From NCBI GenBank assembly GCA_015063785.1, contig SVTM01000001.1, positions 62,001 to 126,000 of the forward strand: a stretch of 64,000 nucleotides of DNA, given 5' to 3'. Positions 14,679 to 53,277 of this stretch are shown in pieces. The DNA comes from Oscillospiraceae bacterium. GTDB taxonomy: Bacteria > Bacillota > Clostridia > Oscillospirales > CAG-382. The stretch's first letter is position 1; each line of letters opens with the position of its first letter. A program made the position numbers and the translations under genes. A model generated the notes under the pieces. It had not been told where the DNA came from and made no database searches. It worked only from the letters and a program-made list of their open reading frames with translations.

Positions 14679-14686
14679 TTTCAAAC

Positions 14687-14728
14687 AAAATCACCTTTTC
14701 GCATATTATGTGAAGGGGTGATTTTTTT
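14687..14728 (+). terminator. mgtE terminator hairpin that also contains the yunB ribosome site
   Basis: A stem of about 17 bp with a few G-T pairs joins AAAATCACC...TTTTCGCA to TGTGAAGGGGTGATTTT, loop TATTA, followed by seven T. It has every mark of a terminator of mgtE. The 3' arm contains GAAGGGGTGA, the only ribosome site for yunB, and the yunB start codon lies in the T-run. Confidence 0.8.
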
Positions 14729-15440
14729 GCATTTTTCAAGAGATAAAACGAATAAATCATTAAAACCGTGGCTAGTATTTGTATTTTTTCTCTTGTTATC
14801 AGTATCTTTTATGATCATAACAGACATGATTATGTTTCCAATGATAAAATCAGCATCAGCGCAGATAGTCAAGTCAAGAACAACACTAATAATAAACGAA
14901 GCTGTATTTAACGTGTTGGAATCCGAAGAGTACGATTACAAAGATATGATAAACCTGGAAAAGAACGACGAAGGAAGAGTGATAGCACTCACAACAAAAA
15001 CCCAAACAATGAACACATTAAAATCCAGAGTTATGACCGAGATATATACAAGAATGCAAGCATATTCGGAAGATGAAATATTATTGCCCTTCGGAAATAT
15101 TTTTAACACAAGTTTCCTCCTTGGAAAAGGTCCGGATATCAAAATTTCAATGACACAATTTGGTGAATGCAATTGCGATTACAGAAACGTTTTTGAAAGT
15201 TGTGGTATCAATCAGACAAATCACAGAGTTATGCTTGATATAAAAATGACCGTTTCCATTATTATGCCATTAAGATGTGTAAAAGAAAGAATCGCAACCA
15301 GTATATGCATTGCTGACACAGTAATCGTAGGAGAAGTTCCGCAGGCATTTACAAACGTTCAAAATTACTCTGCAAGCGACGAGGGGGCAACAGTTGCGGA
15401 CGAGGTTGTGGATTTTGGCGCACACAACTACATAAACTAA
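14727..15440 (+). CDS. yunB: Sporulation protein YunB
   Basis: A 237-residue protein with an N-terminal signal-anchor (about residues 13-35, LVFVFFLLLSVSFMIITDMIMF) and an extracytoplasmic domain. Diagnostic YunB stretches are the ARTTLIINEAV-like segment SRTTLIINEAVFNVL, LPFGNIFNTSFLLGKGPDIKI and the closing TSICIADTVIVGEVPQAFTN. In B. subtilis YunB is made in the mother cell under SigE and contributes to spore formation; its biochemical role is unknown. I chose the TTG at 14727 because the purine-rich GAAGGGGTGA lies six bases before it; the ORF's GTG at 14718 falls inside that site. The site is buried in the mgtE terminator hairpin. Confidence 0.9.
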   Translation: MHFSRDKTNKSLKPWLVFVFFLLLSVSFMIITDMIMFPMIKSASAQIVKSRTTLIINEAVFNVLESEEYDYKDMINLEKNDEGRVIALTTKTQTMNTLKSRVMTEIYTRMQAYSEDEILLPFGNIFNTSFLLGKGPDIKISMTQFGECNCDYRNVFESCGINQTNHRVMLDIKMTVSIIMPLRCVKERIATSICIADTVIVGEVPQAFTNVQNYSASDEGATVADEVVDFGAHNYIN

Positions 15441-38137: not shown

Positions 38138-38387
38138 TGTTAAAAGCTATGATGAAGACAGTAGTTTCGGTCAATCATTCGCAGAGAGCCGACGGTGGTG
38201 CAAGTTCGGCAATGACATCGGAATGAATAACACTTCGGAGCCTGCGGAAGAAAGCCTTTGGCAATTAGAACCGCACGTTCATCCCGTAAGGATGTTTGAG
38301 AGGATCGGTTTATCCGGTCAATTTGGGTGGTATCGCGGAAGTTTAGCCTTTCGTCCCATGTTTGTGGGCGAAAGGCTATTTTATTTT
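38138..38387 (+). promoter_or_regulatory. T-box riboswitch leader controlling aspS-gatCAB
   Basis: A T-box leader of about 250 bases. Visible parts: the stem I distal region AGAGAGCCGACGGTGGTGC, a likely specifier GAC at 38214-38216 followed by A, and the T-box sequence TTTGGGTGGTATCGCGG at 38323-38339 carrying the TGGN that pairs with the tRNA acceptor end, then a terminator hairpin at 38344-38378. GAC is an aspartate codon, matching aspS. Uncharged tRNA(Asp) would favour the antiterminator and raise expression of aspS and probably of the gat genes behind it. An AAT codon overlaps the specifier, but GAC has the expected 3' purine. Confidence 0.9.
38344..38387 (+). terminator. T-box intrinsic terminator
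   Basis: TAGCCTTTCG / CGAAAGGCTA outer stem with inner CCCA/TGGG pairing and a TTTTATTTT tail, the off-state hairpin of the aspS leader. Confidence 0.9.
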
Positions 38388-46721: not shown

Positions 46722-46808
46722 ATAATTAAATTGCACAAACTTTACAAAAATGCTCTCAACTTCTTGAATAAATTAAAAAAATGAGGTATCATATTATCGT
46801 GAGAATGA

Positions 46809-46843
46809 ATCACCTCTGAACCGCATAAGTTGTATGGGGTGAT
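46809..46843 (+). promoter_or_regulatory. Hairpin sequestering the ribosome site of the SpoIIM-like gene
   Basis: ATCACCTC pairs with GGGGTGAT (one T-G pair) across a 19-base loop; the 3' arm is the only ribosome site of the GTG start at 46847. The preceding gene is on the other strand, so this hairpin is not a terminator. The loop contains CATAAGT. Confidence 0.55.
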
Positions 46844-46846
46844 AAT

Positions 46847-47356
46847 GTGAAAAACAAAGTGCTTGAAAAATACGAAAAGCTATCGCTTGCTATTCTTTGT
46901 GCAAACGTGATTTTTTCGATTATTGCAGTTGTCACAGCGCTAAAGCTTATATCCAACAGTGCGTTTTTGTACACACAGGACATTTCATGGACAAAGCTTT
47001 TGTTTACCGACGTTTTTGTCACGGTACTTTTGGGGTTTTCCCATTTTTGCGGAGTAATCGCTGCCATGTCACCGATCTTCTGTTTCGCTTTTTCATTCTT
47101 CAACGCATTTGCATTTTTTATTAGCATCGCAAACTGTGATATTCCATCCATGTCAATTGTTTTTGCAACTTTGCCGCTCTGTCTGGCGCTTTTATACTTT
47201 TGTTTTTCCGCACATGCGGTTAGCAACAGCGTGATAACAGACAGACCCGGCACAACCCGCGCAAAAAAGCATATTCTTTATGATTTGTTACGCTTTTTTG
47301 TTTTTTCCATGATATCATTATTATTGATGCTTGCCGTTAGTTTAATCATCCAATAA
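46847..47356 (+). CDS. Polytopic membrane protein, possibly a divergent SpoIIM
   Basis: A 169-residue protein starting at GTG after GGGGTGAT, with about five membrane helices (SLAILCANVIFSIIAVVTAL, LLFTDVFVTVLLGFSHFCGVI, PIFCFAFSFFNAFAFFISIA, MSIVFATLPLCLALLYFCFSAHAVSNS, FFVFSMISLLLMLAVSLII). The spacing of helices and the pattern LPxxLxLLYFxFSAxAxSNS resemble the stage II sporulation protein M, part of the engulfment machinery, but identity is low and it is shorter than usual. Support comes from context: a xerD-type gene follows after 12 bases, as it does near spoIIM in many Bacillota. I call it SpoIIM-like only tentatively. Confidence 0.5.
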   Translation: MKNKVLEKYEKLSLAILCANVIFSIIAVVTALKLISNSAFLYTQDISWTKLLFTDVFVTVLLGFSHFCGVIAAMSPIFCFAFSFFNAFAFFISIANCDIPSMSIVFATLPLCLALLYFCFSAHAVSNSVITDRPGTTRAKKHILYDLLRFFVFSMISLLLMLAVSLIIQ

Positions 47357-47368
47357 TTCGGAGGAAGT

Positions 47369-48262
47369 ATGAAGGAAGACGCTCTTCTTGAGCTGTTTTA
47401 CGACTATTTGCAATACGAAAAACGCGTATCTCCCAACACATTCCATGCATACAAAAACGATCTTTCAAGTTTTTACTCTTTTTTGAACAGCCAAAGCCTT
47501 GTCGATATATCAGTTACTTCAGACGATATCGAAAGCTTTAAAAACCATATCAAAGAAGAAGGCCGTGCCACATCAAGCGTTTCGCGTTGCTTATCGTCTG
47601 TCAGAGCTCTGTACACATTTTTGCATAAGAACGATATTATAAAGCAGAATCCTGCTCGCAGTGTCAAAAATGACAAATCTTGCGAGAAACATTTAGATAT
47701 TCTCTCTGCCGACGAAATAGACACCCTTATCGGGCAGCCTTCCGGCACAGACGAAAAATCCATTCGCGACCGTGCCATGCTCGAGCTGCTTTATGCCACA
47801 GGTCTCAAGGTATCAGAGCTTATTTCTCTTGATATTTCTGACTTTAATCAATCGCTTTCCACCATAAGATGCAAAAGTTCTTCCGGTAAAAAAGAGCGCA
47901 TCATTCCGCTTTATCCGAAGATCAAAAAGCTTCTTTCTCATTACATCACTAATTCGAGAAAATACCTTGTTTTCAGTGATGACGAAACCGCACTTTTTGT
48001 TAATATAAGCGGTTCTCGAATGACACGACAAGGATTGTGGAAGATTATAAAGCAATATGCAACACAAGCCGGAATAAAAAAAGAAATAACCCCTTGCACA
48101 CTTCGTCATTCTTTTGCCGCCCACCTTCTTGAGAATGGTGCTGACGTTTTTCAACTTCGCGACGTTCTTGGTCATTCGGATATTTCTTCAACCAACGTTT
48201 ACGTAAGTTTTCTTAAGCAAAAAAGCACAAACTCGCTTTTGAAATTTCATCCTCACGCTTGA
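47369..48262 (+). CDS. XerD-like tyrosine recombinase with altered catalytic residues
   Basis: A 297-residue protein with the XerC/D layout: SAM-like N-domain (residues 1-95) and catalytic domain. Sequence context is strongly XerD-like (RDRAMLELLYATGLKVSELISL, ALFVNISGSRMTRQGLWKIIK, CTLRHSFAAHLLENGADVFQLRDVLGHSDISSTNVYVSF). Catalytic positions differ: Arg I in ATGLRVSEL is Lys147, His II in HTLRH is Cys243; the beta-strand Lys (KKER), Arg II (246), the LGHSD histidine (269) and the tyrosine (278) are kept. It lies 12 bases after the SpoIIM-like gene, the normal place for xerD. Either a weakened recombinase or one repurposed to bind DNA. Confidence 0.88.
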   Translation: MKEDALLELFYDYLQYEKRVSPNTFHAYKNDLSSFYSFLNSQSLVDISVTSDDIESFKNHIKEEGRATSSVSRCLSSVRALYTFLHKNDIIKQNPARSVKNDKSCEKHLDILSADEIDTLIGQPSGTDEKSIRDRAMLELLYATGLKVSELISLDISDFNQSLSTIRCKSSSGKKERIIPLYPKIKKLLSHYITNSRKYLVFSDDETALFVNISGSRMTRQGLWKIIKQYATQAGIKKEITPCTLRHSFAAHLLENGADVFQLRDVLGHSDISSTNVYVSFLKQKSTNSLLKFHPHA

Positions 48263-48375
48263 GCAAGCTTCATTTTTTACATATATACCAACGTTGTTAA
48301 TATGATGTTAATATATTTGAAGTAGAATATATGTGTTTGGTTTTCCGACACATATATTTTTTATGGAGATTATAA

Positions 48376-49359
48376 ATGGCAAAAAAGAAATTTGGATTTT
48401 TTGATTTCACCAAAGAGGGAAAAGGCGTAAAAAAAGAAAGCTACGTGGAAGACAAGCCTTTTACTTTATCTACCTTTTTTAAGACGCTTGGCCGAAATTT
48501 TTGGAATTTTTCCGGTCTCAATTTCCTATATATAGTTATCAATCTTCCGATATTTTTCGGATTATACGCTCTCTCGGGCAATCTCAATTTCACTTCGCAA
48601 ACGCCTCTTAATCCTTTATACTCACAGCTTTTCGGAATCACACACGCCGCCACCGAAGCATCTCCCATAACACAGTTGCACTTCAGTAAGCTCTACGAGG
48701 AATATTCGCTTTCTCTTCCGTCAACCGCGACCATAGTTTTCTTTTTTATAACACTTCTTGTAGTTTTCACCTTTGGTATTACAAACTGTGGAATGGCGGC
48801 TGTCCTTCGCGGTTACACGAGAAAAGAACCCGTTTTTCTAGCATCTGACTTTTTTGGTTCAATCGCAGCAAATTGGAAACAGGCATTACCCATGGGAATT
48901 ATTGATGTCGTTGCCACCTTTGTCACTTTCTACGTCTTCAATTTCTGGCGTACCTATGCGCAAGGATTTGTCAATGACATTATGTTCTATCTCAGCATTT
49001 TCCTACTTGTTATCTATTTCTTTATGCGCTTTTACATCTACACACTTATGATAACGTTCGATCTTTCTATATACAAAATACTCAAAAATTCGTTCATTTT
49101 TGCACTGCTCGGTTTCAAGAGAAATTTTGTAGCTCTCCTTGGTATTCTGCTTACTGTGTTTATCAACTTCTACATTTTCGCTCTGTTTATGCCACTCGGA
49201 ATTATTCTTCCTTTCATCATCACCATTTCGTTATGCTCTTTCATTGCGATATACTGCACTTATCCGAACGTAAAGAAATTCATGATAGACCCATATTATT
49301 CAGAAAAAGATGACGATTCCGACGACGAAGAAGACCCCATATTTGTCGATAGAGGATAA
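48376..49359 (+). CDS. DUF624 family membrane protein
   Basis: A 327-residue polytopic membrane protein with about six helices and an acidic C-terminus (EKDDDSDDEEDP). The DUF624 hallmarks are the opening FFKTLGRNFWNFSGLNFLYIVINLPIFFGLYAL, FGITNCGMAAVLRGYTRKEPVFLASDFFGSIAANWKQALPMG, and YIYTLMITFDLSIYKILKNSFIFALLGFKRN. The family is common in Bacillota, often near sugar ABC transporters, but its function is unknown; no transporter genes are near here. Ribosome site TGGAG. Ends at a strong hairpin. Confidence 0.88.
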   Translation: MAKKKFGFFDFTKEGKGVKKESYVEDKPFTLSTFFKTLGRNFWNFSGLNFLYIVINLPIFFGLYALSGNLNFTSQTPLNPLYSQLFGITHAATEASPITQLHFSKLYEEYSLSLPSTATIVFFFITLLVVFTFGITNCGMAAVLRGYTRKEPVFLASDFFGSIAANWKQALPMGIIDVVATFVTFYVFNFWRTYAQGFVNDIMFYLSIFLLVIYFFMRFYIYTLMITFDLSIYKILKNSFIFALLGFKRNFVALLGILLTVFINFYIFALFMPLGIILPFIITISLCSFIAIYCTYPNVKKFMIDPYYSEKDDDSDDEEDPIFVDRG

Positions 49360-49371
49360 AACAAAAAACAA

Positions 49372-49398
49372 CCGTAAGAAGCATGTTGCTTCTTACGG
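49372..49398. terminator. Terminator between the DUF624 and Xer-type genes
   Basis: 12-bp perfect stem CCGTAAGAAGCA / TGCTTCTTACGG with a three-base loop, extended by AACAA/TTGTT; it lies between convergent genes. Confidence 0.88.
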
Positions 49399-49417
49399 CG
49401 TTGTTTAATTTATATGA

Positions 49418-50410
49418 TCATTCTTCCTTGGTCTTTACAGGTTTTGACGGTTTGATGGACGAAAGGGGATTCGACTGTGCCGCTTTCTGCATCTGCTCGT
49501 CGCTGAGATGTGTATATATCTGCGTGGTGGACAGATCCTCGTGACCGAGAATGTCCTTAAGTACTCTGACGTCGGTGTGGCCGTGTTGATACATAAGGGT
49601 GGCCGCCGTGTGTCTTAGTTTGTGCACAGACATATTTCGATTTTCAAGTCCTGCTTCTTTCAGTCTTTTATATACAAGCCACTGAATGGTTTTTACGTTC
49701 AGTCGATTTCTGTTGCGAGAGATAAAAAGAGCATCCTTATCCTTGCCCTTGATGTCTTTTGGGCGAACGGCAAGATAGGCTGAAATTGCAGCTTTGCAGG
49801 CATCGTTGAGATAAACCATGCGCTCTTTATTTCCCTTGCCGACAACGCGAAGCTTTGAAAGATCCTGCTCGATGTCCTTTAGTGATATGCCCTCGAGTTC
49901 AGAAACACGAAGTCCGCAGTTAAGGAATATAGTGATGATTGCATAGTCTCTCTCGTAATTTGGGGGAGAGATGCTGGATAACAGCTGTTGAGCTTCTTCC
50001 AGATTCAGATATTTCGGCAGACTTTTCTTTTTCTTTGGCGAGTCAAGCTTATCCGACGGGTTTTCATCAACTTCAAAAGAGTTTTTTAGAAATTTATAAA
50101 GGTTTCTGATGGCGCACAGTTTTCGTGCACGGGCAGCTTCTTTGTTCTTTCTGTCGGTCTGAACGTAAAGCATGAAATTATATATATCCCTTTGTGTGAC
50201 TCCGCGGACATCGTCATCTGTACAATCCGAAAACTCAATTTCGGTTATGTCACAATCATATCGGTCGGGATATTTATTTTTTAGCACGAATCTGAAAAAA
50301 TGTCTGATATCATGATAATATTGAAACACGGTTTGTTCCGAACGTCCCTGTATTGTACCCTTATACGAAAGAAAATTCAGAACAAGCTGCGGAGCATCGT
50401 TGTATTGCAT
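49418..50410 (-). CDS. Tyrosine recombinase, XerC/XerD type, catalytically intact
   Basis: A 330-residue site-specific recombinase. The N-terminal SAM-like domain (VLNFLSYKGTIQGRSEQTVFQYYHDIRHFFRFVL) and a full catalytic set are present: Arg I in NCGLRVSELEGI, Lys in VVGKGNKERMVYL, HKLRH (His and Arg II), LGHEDLSTTQIYTH with the third histidine and the tyrosine. The charged C-terminal tail after YTHLSDEQMQKAAQ is longer than in XerD. This form is common in Clostridia as a chromosomal Xer protein; nothing nearby suggests an integrative element. It may be the working chromosome-dimer recombinase of this genome, given the altered XerD-like protein 1 kb away. Confidence 0.93.
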   Translation of the reverse strand: MQYNDAPQLVLNFLSYKGTIQGRSEQTVFQYYHDIRHFFRFVLKNKYPDRYDCDITEIEFSDCTDDDVRGVTQRDIYNFMLYVQTDRKNKEAARARKLCAIRNLYKFLKNSFEVDENPSDKLDSPKKKKSLPKYLNLEEAQQLLSSISPPNYERDYAIITIFLNCGLRVSELEGISLKDIEQDLSKLRVVGKGNKERMVYLNDACKAAISAYLAVRPKDIKGKDKDALFISRNRNRLNVKTIQWLVYKRLKEAGLENRNMSVHKLRHTAATLMYQHGHTDVRVLKDILGHEDLSTTQIYTHLSDEQMQKAAQSNPLSSIKPSKPVKTKEE

Positions 50411-50494
50411 CGTTACCTCTCAGCATTGTTTTTTATAATTATAGCACACAAAAATCCACATAACAATATCTTTATCTAAAAAAGGATGGAAAAA

Positions 50495-51085
50495 ATGAAA
50501 AACTTGTTCAAACAAAAAGGTTATCTCATGCTCAAATGCCTTATAAACCAGATTGCGCTTTCACTTTTTGGTCTTATGGTTTCGGGTTTCACTATCACCG
50601 ACGGCGGCACGGGATGGCTTTTACCAATTGGTATTTTTTCAATACTTTTCTACTACTTTATTCTTATCTCTTTCATCCGCGAAGATGGACTTAAGGATGG
50701 GCTTAAAGTCGAAGGCGGCAGAATGAAAAAAGACGTTTTTCTGTCTGTAAAATACTGTGCGATCGCATCAGTACCCGGTTTGCTTTTCCCACTTATAAAC
50801 CTCATTGTGCGTCTGATCGCACATTTTGGATCCTTTACTAATGATCTTATAATCAATATATCCGGCATATGTAACGCAGTTACAAGAATACTTACATACG
50901 GCATGTATAACCCCGTTGATTCTTATCTTTTCAACCATCAGTATGGTCTTTTGAAGAGCATTAGCTTTGTTTCGGATTGGGGAATCAGCTTTTTGATCTA
51001 CACCTTACTCACTATTGCAGTTGCATTCTTTGCATACTTTACAGGCGTAAATCAGATGTTTACCAAAAAGGAAAACAAAGAATAA
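50495..51085 (+). CDS. Polytopic membrane protein of unknown function
   Basis: Start at the ATG at 50495 (MKNLFKQKGYLML) with AAAGGATGG before it; 196 residues. Five hydrophobic segments are visible (LINQIALSLFGLMVSGFTI, WLLPIGIFSILFYYFILISF, YCAIASVPGLLFPLINLIVRLIAHF, IINISGICNAVTRIL, WGISFLIYTLLTIAVAFFAYF). No motif ties it to a known family. It precedes cwlD by 53 bases with the cwlD hairpin in between, so it may be read into cwlD. Function unknown. Confidence 0.75.
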   Translation: MKNLFKQKGYLMLKCLINQIALSLFGLMVSGFTITDGGTGWLLPIGIFSILFYYFILISFIREDGLKDGLKVEGGRMKKDVFLSVKYCAIASVPGLLFPLINLIVRLIAHFGSFTNDLIINISGICNAVTRILTYGMYNPVDSYLFNHQYGLLKSISFVSDWGISFLIYTLLTIAVAFFAYFTGVNQMFTKKENKE

Positions 51086-51101
51086 TTCTATAATAAAACA
51101 T

Positions 51102-51137
51102 AAATCACTCCAATATATTTATATAAAGGAGTGATTT
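51102..51137 (+). promoter_or_regulatory. Hairpin sequestering the cwlD ribosome site
   Basis: AAATCACTCC and GGAGTGATTT form a perfect 10-bp stem around a 16-base AT-only loop. The 3' arm is the cwlD ribosome site and the GTG start follows one base after the stem. CATAAAT, like a sporulation-sigma -10 element, lies just before the 5' arm at 51098-51104. The T-run is too short for a good terminator. Confidence 0.6.
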
Positions 51138-51138
51138 T

Positions 51139-51885
51139 GTGAATAACCGCATATTTAATATGCATCGTAAAGTTTTCATCCGTCTGATCTTTTTTATAGT
51201 CTTTACGACTGTCTTCGTTTTGTCCTCGCTTTTGATTTTGTGGATATCCGGTTCGTTTTCAACCGCCACGGGAGCAGAAGTTTTTTCTGAAGAAGATCCG
51301 ACGCCGGTTGTTATCATTGACGCAGGACACGGCGGGGAAGACGGCGGTGCGCTTTCGGCCGACGGATTGTGCGAAAAAGATATTAATCTTGATATTGCAA
51401 AAAAGATTTACGACTTTATGTCATTATCCGATTTTAAAGTGATAATGACAAGGGACGACGACAGGCTTTTGTACGACAAAAGCACAACGGGCGGTAAAAA
51501 GCACCAGGATATATCAAACCGCATAAAAATTGCATCATCTTATGAGAATTCAATTTTTGTAAGTGTTCATCAAAACAAATTTCCCATACGAAAATACAGC
51601 GGTTTTCAGGTGTATTTTTCAAAAAACAATCCCGAAAGCCAAAAACTTGCAAGCGTTATTCAACAAAACGTCAAATCACATCTGCAACACGAAAACAAGC
51701 GTGAAATAAAAATGGCAGACAAAAACATTCGTCTTCTTGACAGTGTGCAAATACCCGCAGTTCTTGCAGAATGCGGTTTTTTATCTAACGAGCATGAAGC
51801 ACAATTGCTTGCCGACCCGGAATACAGAAGCAAGATTGCATATCTTATATATATTTCAATTATAAGCTATTTGAGTGAATATTAA
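51139..51885 (+). CDS. cwlD: Germination-specific N-acetylmuramoyl-L-alanine amidase CwlD
   Basis: A 248-residue Amidase_3 enzyme beginning at GTG after GGAGTGAT. An N-terminal signal-anchor (about residues 11-35, FIRLIFFIVFTTVFVLSSLLILWI) exports it. Zinc ligands are in VVIIDAGHGGEDGGA, DGLCEKDINLDIA and SIFVSVHQNKFP, and the catalytic glutamate in VLAECGFLSN. SVHQNKFP followed by GFQVYFSKNNPES is the CwlD pattern. In spore-formers CwlD trims peptide side chains to start muramic lactam formation in the spore cortex, which germination enzymes need. Followed by radA after 15 bases. The ribosome site is buried in a hairpin, so translation may depend on which promoter is used. Confidence 0.9.
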   Translation: MNNRIFNMHRKVFIRLIFFIVFTTVFVLSSLLILWISGSFSTATGAEVFSEEDPTPVVIIDAGHGGEDGGALSADGLCEKDINLDIAKKIYDFMSLSDFKVIMTRDDDRLLYDKSTTGGKKHQDISNRIKIASSYENSIFVSVHQNKFPIRKYSGFQVYFSKNNPESQKLASVIQQNVKSHLQHENKREIKMADKNIRLLDSVQIPAVLAECGFLSNEHEAQLLADPEYRSKIAYLIYISIISYLSEY

Positions 51886-51900
51886 GGAGTTACAAAATCA

Positions 51901-53277
51901 GTGAAAAACAAATCAGAGTTTGTATGTACCGAATGCGGTTACAGGTCTACAAAATGGTACGGAAAGTGTCCGGGATGTGACAGCTGGAACACTCTTGAAG
52001 AAAATGAAACTGTCGAAAACGAACCCTCTGCCGCTTCCAAGCGCAAAGTGTCGCGACCTGCAAAAACCACATATTCCGCATCCAAGCTTAATGATATAGA
52101 GATACGAGACAGTATCAGAATCAAAACCGAAATAGGGGAGTTCGACAGAGTTCTCGGCGGCGGCATTGTGGAAGGATCTGTTGTGCTTTTGTCAGGCGAA
52201 CCGGGCATTGGAAAATCAACAATGCTCTTGCAGGTCTGTGCAAGTCTTGGAGCCAACGAAAAGCTTTTGTACGTCTCTGGCGAGGAATCGCAGGGGCAGA
52301 TAAAACTGCGCGCAAAACGGCTTGAGATCGACTCTGACAACCTTTATATTCTTACAGAAACAGAGATCAACGGAATATGCGACGAAATAGAAGTTTTGTC
52401 GCCCGACGTTGTAATCATAGACTCAATACAAACCATGTATGACGAAAATTCGTCATCTGCACCCGGCGCAGTATCTCAGATAAAAAACTGTGCTCAAGCT
52501 CTGATAAGACAAGCAAAAACAAATAATTGCGCCGTGATTATCGTCGGACACGTTAACAAAGACGGAGCAATCGCAGGACCTAAGGTGCTAGAGCACATGG
52601 TGGATACAGTACTTTACTTTGAGGGCGAAAAGCAACACTCATATAGAATTCTTCGCGCAGTTAAGAACAGATTCGGATCTACCAATGAAATAGGTGTTTT
52701 TGAAATGCACGAAACAGGGCTGTGTGAAGTTGAAAACCCATCAGAAATGCTCCTTTCAGAGCGTTCCGGAGATGTTTCGGGCAGTTGTACCATGTGTGTG
52801 ATGGAAGGATCGCGTCCCATTCTTGCTGAAATACAAGCTCTTGTTTCGGCAACCTCGTATCCGTCACCGCGCAGAATGGCATCAGGCCTCGATTACAACA
52901 GAGTATCTCTTATAACCGCGGTGCTTGAAAAGCGACTGGGACTTAAGTTTTCATCACAGGACGTATATATCAACATTGCAGGTGGACTCAGAATTGATGA
53001 GCCGTCTTGTGATCTCGCAGCATGCATCGCCTTGATCTCGGGTTACAAAGACATTTCGGTCCCCGAAGACGTCGTTGCTATCGGTGAAATCGGACTGTCG
53101 GGCGAATGCAGAGGAGTTGGATTTATAGAAAACAGAATCAACGAAGCTGCAAGGCTTGGTTTCAAAAAAATTCTGATTCCTCACAAAAACTATCAAAAAA
53201 TGTCAAAAATCCATCGTTCGGACATTGAAATCGTTCCGATCAAGAGTCTTTTTGACGCATTGAAGCTTTTTGTATGA
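51901..53277 (+). CDS. radA: DNA repair protein RadA
   Basis: A 458-residue RecA-like ATPase acting in branch migration during recombination. The N-terminal C4 zinc finger is CTECGYRSTKWYGKCPGCDSWNT; Walker A is LLSGEPGIGKSTMLLQV near residues 96-112; the RadA-specific KNRFGSTNEIGVFEM follows, and the C-terminal Lon-protease-like domain is complete (YINIAGGLRIDEPSCDLAACIALISG...LTGECRGV-type LSGECRGVGFIENRINEAARLGFKKILIP). Starts at GTG after AAGGAG. It overlaps the DUF6873 gene by four bases. Confidence 0.96.
   Translation: MKNKSEFVCTECGYRSTKWYGKCPGCDSWNTLEENETVENEPSAASKRKVSRPAKTTYSASKLNDIEIRDSIRIKTEIGEFDRVLGGGIVEGSVVLLSGEPGIGKSTMLLQVCASLGANEKLLYVSGEESQGQIKLRAKRLEIDSDNLYILTETEINGICDEIEVLSPDVVIIDSIQTMYDENSSSAPGAVSQIKNCAQALIRQAKTNNCAVIIVGHVNKDGAIAGPKVLEHMVDTVLYFEGEKQHSYRILRAVKNRFGSTNEIGVFEMHETGLCEVENPSEMLLSERSGDVSGSCTMCVMEGSRPILAEIQALVSATSYPSPRRMASGLDYNRVSLITAVLEKRLGLKFSSQDVYINIAGGLRIDEPSCDLAACIALISGYKDISVPEDVVAIGEIGLSGECRGVGFIENRINEAARLGFKKILIPHKNYQKMSKIHRSDIEIVPIKSLFDALKLFV

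Follow-up and report, generated by a model that had tools for sequence, protein, structure and literature searches.

The window, meaning the whole 64,000-nt stretch of DNA analyzed here (Oscillospiraceae bacterium, assembly GCA_015063785.1, contig SVTM01000001.1, positions 62,001-126,000, forward strand), contains three genes whose SD sits in the 3' arm of a hairpin according to RNA folding: yunB, cwlD, and a gene at position 46847 (Table 1). The first-pass annotation had placed hairpins at these genes, and all three are present there, as the folds confirm. When isolated hairpins were compared with 200 dinucleotide shuffles, those of yunB (14687-14725; -21.6 kcal/mol, z -7.1) and cwlD (51103-51136; -15.6 kcal/mol, z -4.9) were equaled by none, and that of the 46847 gene (46809-46843; -11.6 kcal/mol, z -2.0) by 9 of the 200. 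An Rfam search of the window revealed no known RNA family at the hairpins, its sole match being a T-box leader elsewhere (38140-38361, +, 122.6 bits).

All three genes also carry a σE-like motif, with -35 and -10 elements at σE spacing, that is likewise found in relatives: TCAAACA-N14-CATATTAT at yunB, GAATGAA-N14-CATAAGTT at the 46847 gene, and TAATAAA-N14-AATATATT at cwlD. Likeness to σE was judged by the spacing and by the letters of the B. subtilis σE consensus. For the promoter PWM, only cwlD relatives from genera other than that of the window served as the training set. CATA-type 7-mers had earlier been pointed out in or directly before each hairpin; a σE-like -10 does lie in or at the loop at all three genes, but the CATAAAT singled out at cwlD is not that element, with a PWM score of 2.7 versus 8.5 for AATATATT, whose -35 stands at the right distance.

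Table 1. Genes, predicted promoter elements, and hairpin arms at the three loci of the window
Feature	Position	Strand	Basis and remarks
yunB -35, TCAAACA (σE-like)	14681..14687	+	PWM score 8.3, within the highest 0.044 % in the window
yunB hairpin 5' arm, complementary to SD region	14687..14704	+	RNA fold of -21.6 kcal/mol with 18-bp stem
yunB -10, CATATTAT, hairpin tip	14702..14709	+	14 nt past -35
yunB hairpin 3' arm with SD, GGGGTGATT, continuing into T-tract	14708..14725	+	RNA fold; possible mgtE terminator
yunB	14727..15440	+	TTG start; TIGR02832 158 bits, above cut-off
σA-like promoter upstream of 46847 hairpin, TTGAAT-N17-TATCAT	46764..46792	+	Consensus match only; kept in sister genome G003
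46847 -35, GAATGAA (σE-like)	46803..46809	+	PWM score 12.0, within the highest 0.005 % in the window
46847 hairpin 5' arm, ATCACCTC	46809..46816	+	RNA fold
46847 -10, CATAAGTT, in loop	46824..46831	+	PWM
46847 hairpin 3' arm = SD, GGGGTGAT	46836..46843	+	Sequence, RNA fold
46847 gene, membrane protein of unknown family	46847..47356	+	Occupies the spoIIM position of relatives, ahead of xerD
xerD-type recombinase	47369..48262	+	12 nt downstream of 46847 gene; TIGR02225, 291 bits
cwlD -35, TAATAAA (σE-like)	51091..51097	+	PWM score 8.5, within the highest 0.037 % in the window
cwlD hairpin 5' arm, AATCACTCC, within promoter spacer	51103..51111	+	Sequence, RNA fold
cwlD -10, AATATATT, in loop	51112..51119	+	PWM; same degenerate form in family members L018, L020
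cwlD hairpin 3' arm with SD, GGAGTGAT	51128..51136	+	RNA fold
cwlD	51139..51885	+	GTG start; TIGR02883 201.5 bits, below cut-off 221.55, best match of family set
radA	51901..53277	+	15 nt downstream of cwlD; TIGR00416 612.7 bits; negative control in relatives

The name "SpoIIM-like," previously attached to the 46847 gene, finds no support in its sequence, as the protein matches nothing in Pfam or NCBIfam and hhalign gives SpoIIM a probability of 0.9 %. We therefore rejected homology to SpoIIM; the link is positional only, since xerD comes after spoIIM in relatives. The one usable relative at this locus, the sister genome, has GAATAGA-N14-CATAGTAT as the counterpart promoter and ATCCCCCG against CGGGGTGAT as hairpin arms. 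The xerD-type gene is one of two XerC/XerD-type tyrosine recombinase genes located near each other on opposite strands, the other at 49418-50410 (-).

In read-through RNA, opening the SD would cost 14.3 (yunB), 11.7 (46847), and 13.8 kcal/mol (cwlD), versus 1.8, 1.5, and 0.6 kcal/mol, respectively, in the predicted own transcripts. Within a 464-kb sample of the host genome comprising 292 starts (mean z 0.03), the three genes rank 1st, 3rd, and 6th by the cost of freeing the SD. The literal motif ATCAC-N12-30-GRGTGAT has 13 matches in the 2.5-Mb genome and none in a reversed control. It was rejected as a genome-wide signature because only the three window copies stand at a gene start; the remaining flanks inspected resemble coding sequence. 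Non-ATG starts, which had been associated with the hairpins, show no such tie among cwlD relatives, occurring in 15/43 with a hairpin and 7/23 without.

The comparison with relatives, whose genomes are mostly MAGs or drafts, used gene starts assigned by a single rule, and the SD-opening cost of each locus was set against shuffles in which the SD was retained and only the sequence ahead of it was permuted. Starts, promoters, and transcript ends are predictions throughout. Among 96 order-level relatives, the cwlD SD hairpin has a median cost of 9.4 kcal/mol and a mean z of 1.87, with 43/96 at p<=0.05; radA, the control at the same loci, has a median of 1.6 kcal/mol and z -0.30, with 5/78 loci at p<=0.05. 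The arms themselves differ, for instance CCCGTGT-CATATAAT-ACACGGG (L085), AAATCACCCCACGC..GCGTGGGGTGATTT (L145), and CCCCATA..TATGGGG (L152). In a swap test, in which upstream regions were matched with the SDs of all other species in turn, own pairs of cwlD reached 9.13 versus 5.87 for foreign pairs (z 13.8), and radA showed no own-pair advantage (z -0.8). Because own arm and own SD outdo swapped arms, the arms of cwlD covary, which is direct evidence that selection keeps the arm-SD pairing.

These results bear on two rival explanations. Chance folding of strong SDs in AT-rich leaders would accord with the approximately 7 % of sampled host starts that attain p<=0.05 (20/292), and the 46847 hairpin, taken by itself, reaches only z -2.0 and may be fortuitous. 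For cwlD, however, chance is contradicted by the swap test and by its null outcome at radA, and we consider this explanation very unlikely. That the inverted repeat is instead a DNA operator for a regulator, involving no RNA structure, would suit its overlap with the promoter, a plausible operator position, but is scarcely credible: arm sequences vary freely from genus to genus, conservation being confined to their complementarity to the SD, and no conserved half-site was seen. The shared ATCAC...GTGAT sequence emphasized in the first-pass annotation is thus not the conserved feature.

Aligning 67 cwlD loci at the CATA nearest the SD gave the σE-like promoter logo KMATAAA-N14-CATANANT, in which the KMATAAA element emerges independently 14 nt ahead of the CATA anchor, and a purine-rich start lies approximately 13 nt past the C with the SD immediately after. 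No position of the 14-nt spacer is conserved in these relatives, and the blocking arm is located there. B. subtilis σE promoters have the same -35/-10 spacing (PMC517825), and cwlD of C. difficile has a σE promoter (PMC3789822). In all 39 strong cwlD hairpins, every SD partner precedes the predicted start; relative to the -10 box, most partners fall between -8 and +1. With the 5' arm upstream of that start, the own transcript is predicted to lack the hairpin, and the median SD-opening cost in cwlD relatives falls from 8.6 in the long transcript to 2.0 kcal/mol in the predicted own transcript. This geometry makes it decidedly unlikely that the hairpin tunes the gene's own transcript, as does the 5-bp RBS hairpin of B. 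subtilis sigG, which cuts translation 2-4-fold (PMC5942855): the predicted own transcripts begin past the 5' arm in 39/39 strong cwlD cases, and opening their SD is predicted to cost about 0.6-2 kcal/mol.

At yunB, the pattern in relatives has the same direction. The SD hairpin has a mean z of 1.08 over 29 loci, 8 of them at p<=0.05; the swap test gives z 4.4; and the PWM promoter score exceeds the shuffled 95 % level in 13/29, compared with 4/78 for radA. Alternatively, the hairpins could serve the upstream gene as intrinsic terminators, their overlap with the start of the next gene being incidental. The yunB hairpin does resemble an intrinsic terminator of mgtE and may also end mgtE transcription, having an 18-bp stem with a T-tract directly after it, kept in the genomes G003 and G004; hairpin-bearing cwlD loci are also slightly T-richer past the SD (3.5 against 2.5 of 8). 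Judged by eye, however, a G+C-rich stem with a T-tract fits yunB and not the 46847 gene, where no terminator-like site was detected and the upstream neighbor lies on the opposite strand, as had been argued before. Most cwlD relatives do not fit either, with just 4/44 hairpin-bearing loci having at least 6 T among the 8 nt that follow the SD. Nor does a terminator need the SD to fall in its 3' arm, as happens repeatedly across species. We regard termination as an unlikely general explanation of the hairpins.

The best explanation, which we consider likely, is a self-releasing translation lock. Transcription initiated upstream, at a neighboring gene or at a σA-like promoter perhaps serving the downstream gene, would reach each locked gene, and in this long transcript the SD would pair with the stretch immediately ahead of the gene's own -10 box, blocking ribosome start. 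During sporulation, a σE-like factor would use the promoter whose -10 is in or at the hairpin loop, and the resulting short mRNA, starting beside the SD and devoid of the blocking arm, would be translated. A locked spore gene would thus be silent in ordinary transcripts and opened in sporulation alone. The hairpins, the SD in their 3' arm, the covariation, the promoter-like motif at fixed spacing, and the position of the blocking arm ahead of the predicted start are observations, whereas σE use of these promoters, the existence of the long transcripts, and blocked translation are inferred. Counting against the lock are the very short leaders predicted for the own transcripts of the three window genes, about 8-16 nt, its lack at spoIIIAA and most spoIVA loci, and the single relative available at 46847. 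An own-promoter lock on spore genes had been proposed in the first-pass annotation; it is strongly supported at cwlD by covariation and promoter geometry, and more weakly supported at yunB and the 46847 gene.

Gene surroundings suggest why such a lock is useful. Two of the three window genes directly precede housekeeping genes (46847 before xerD, cwlD before radA), and radA lies <=150 nt from cwlD in 77/98 relatives. Given this gene order and the σA-like promoter, RNA polymerase transcribing radA or xerD during growth could pass through the spore gene. A link between hairpin strength and a co-directional upstream gene was considered for cwlD and rejected, as strength does not differ where the upstream gene appears divergent (z 1.90 against 1.91); this equality counts against the lock as regards the source of the long transcripts, and could fit an upstream σA-like promoter, as at 46847.

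To assess how widespread the arrangement is, we combined a promoter score >=8 with a strong hairpin (>=11 kcal/mol), cut-offs picked after inspection of the data. Only four starts in the 464-kb sample have both: yunB, cwlD, the 46847 gene, and a DUF4830 gene. The latter (L182:9821; host genome G000, contig C32, +), with CACCTCACGCATATC...GTGTGAGGTG over the SD and a promoter score of 16.2, is a candidate unrecognized spore gene. Two relatives, G052 and G058, sampled over 400 kb apiece, both yielded cwlD. The second of these, the cultured Clostridium sp. D33t1_170424_F3, also yielded a D,D-carboxypeptidase, with an opening cost of 24.4 kcal/mol, and spoIIM (loci L398:6471 and L388:15603). The culturable Anaeromassilibacillus senegalensis mt9 likewise carries the cwlD form. 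Across the host sample and those of the two relatives, with cwlD excluded, strong hairpins occur at 5/34 promoter-bearing versus 16/794 other starts (Fisher p 0.001, with these post hoc cut-offs).

Homologues differ in how often they have a hairpin at p<=0.05: 7/14 for spoIIM, 6/29 for spoIVA, and 1/24 for spoIIIAA, with a hairpin in 6/30 for cwlD in the rest of the class, outside the order. The lock therefore appears recurrent yet selective; the low counts of spoIIIAA and spoIVA led us to reject it as a general property of σE genes, and the earlier idea of a device common to spore genes does not extend to all of them. Outside the order, four cwlD loci (L340, L359, L364, L365) have strong SD hairpins costing 13-20 kcal/mol, for instance CCTCCAAGAAT...ATTCTTGGAGG, and possibly represent independent origins of the lock.

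Hiding of the ribosome site is known from early and late transcripts of phage T4, as for the lysozyme gene e. There, as proposed here, a long versus a short transcript sets SD accessibility; T4 gene e uses a phage late promoter, whereas a sporulation sigma factor would act here. The mechanism is a principle already proposed for B. subtilis sigG (spoIIIG), in which transcripts entering from spoIIG were suggested to stay untranslated owing to a hairpin that RNA initiated at the gene's own promoter is unable to form (Masuda 1988, Sun 1991, via PMC5942855). As far as that system is described there, the likeness includes an SD hidden in read-in RNA and freed in the own sporulation transcript, a GTG start, and a sporulation gene. 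By the same account, the sigG system comprises one gene, a forespore σF/G promoter, and a stem of 20+ pairs, whereas here we find a mother-cell σE-like promoter, other genes, covariation across many genera, a -10 that lies within or beside the loop, and a blocking arm inside the promoter spacer. The small RBS hairpin of sigG similarly has an upstream arm that sequesters the SD of a sporulation gene, but it forms in the gene's own transcript (PMC5942855), from which the arm is predicted to be absent here. The present analysis adds that the arrangement recurs, at cwlD and yunB among other genes, that the arms covary, and that the promoter spacer doubles as an SD-blocking arm. In the open-access literature, outside which most subscription papers lie, we found no such lock for cwlD, yunB, or the other genes.

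At the level of the order, we advance more tentatively, as a conceivable but rather uncertain generalization, that spore genes amid housekeeping genes may be silenced as single cistrons within vegetative mRNAs that are polycistronic. The lock would be recurrent, would have re-evolved repeatedly, and would derive from their own σE promoter spacer, so that one DNA stretch would hold two codes, sigma-factor recognition and SD complementarity. If true, the single B. subtilis case would become a lineage-wide, sequence-testable rule, explaining how a developmental gene can sit amid vegetative genes yet stay untranslated. The signature, a σE -10 in the loop and the SD in the 3' arm, would find locked sporulation genes, including uncharacterized ones such as DUF4830, and could be applied to gut Clostridia, where sporulation is hardly studied.

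An order-wide search for CATA with a strong SD lists cwlD, sigK, spoIIM, spoIIIAA, YlmC/YmxH, and others. This pattern is inherently biased to sporulation genes and was therefore used to list candidates, not as proof of hairpins. In several genomes, TspO/MBR-like membrane proteins (L210, L214, L216, L229), not a known sporulation family, stand behind CCTCATA...TGAGGTGAT hairpins.
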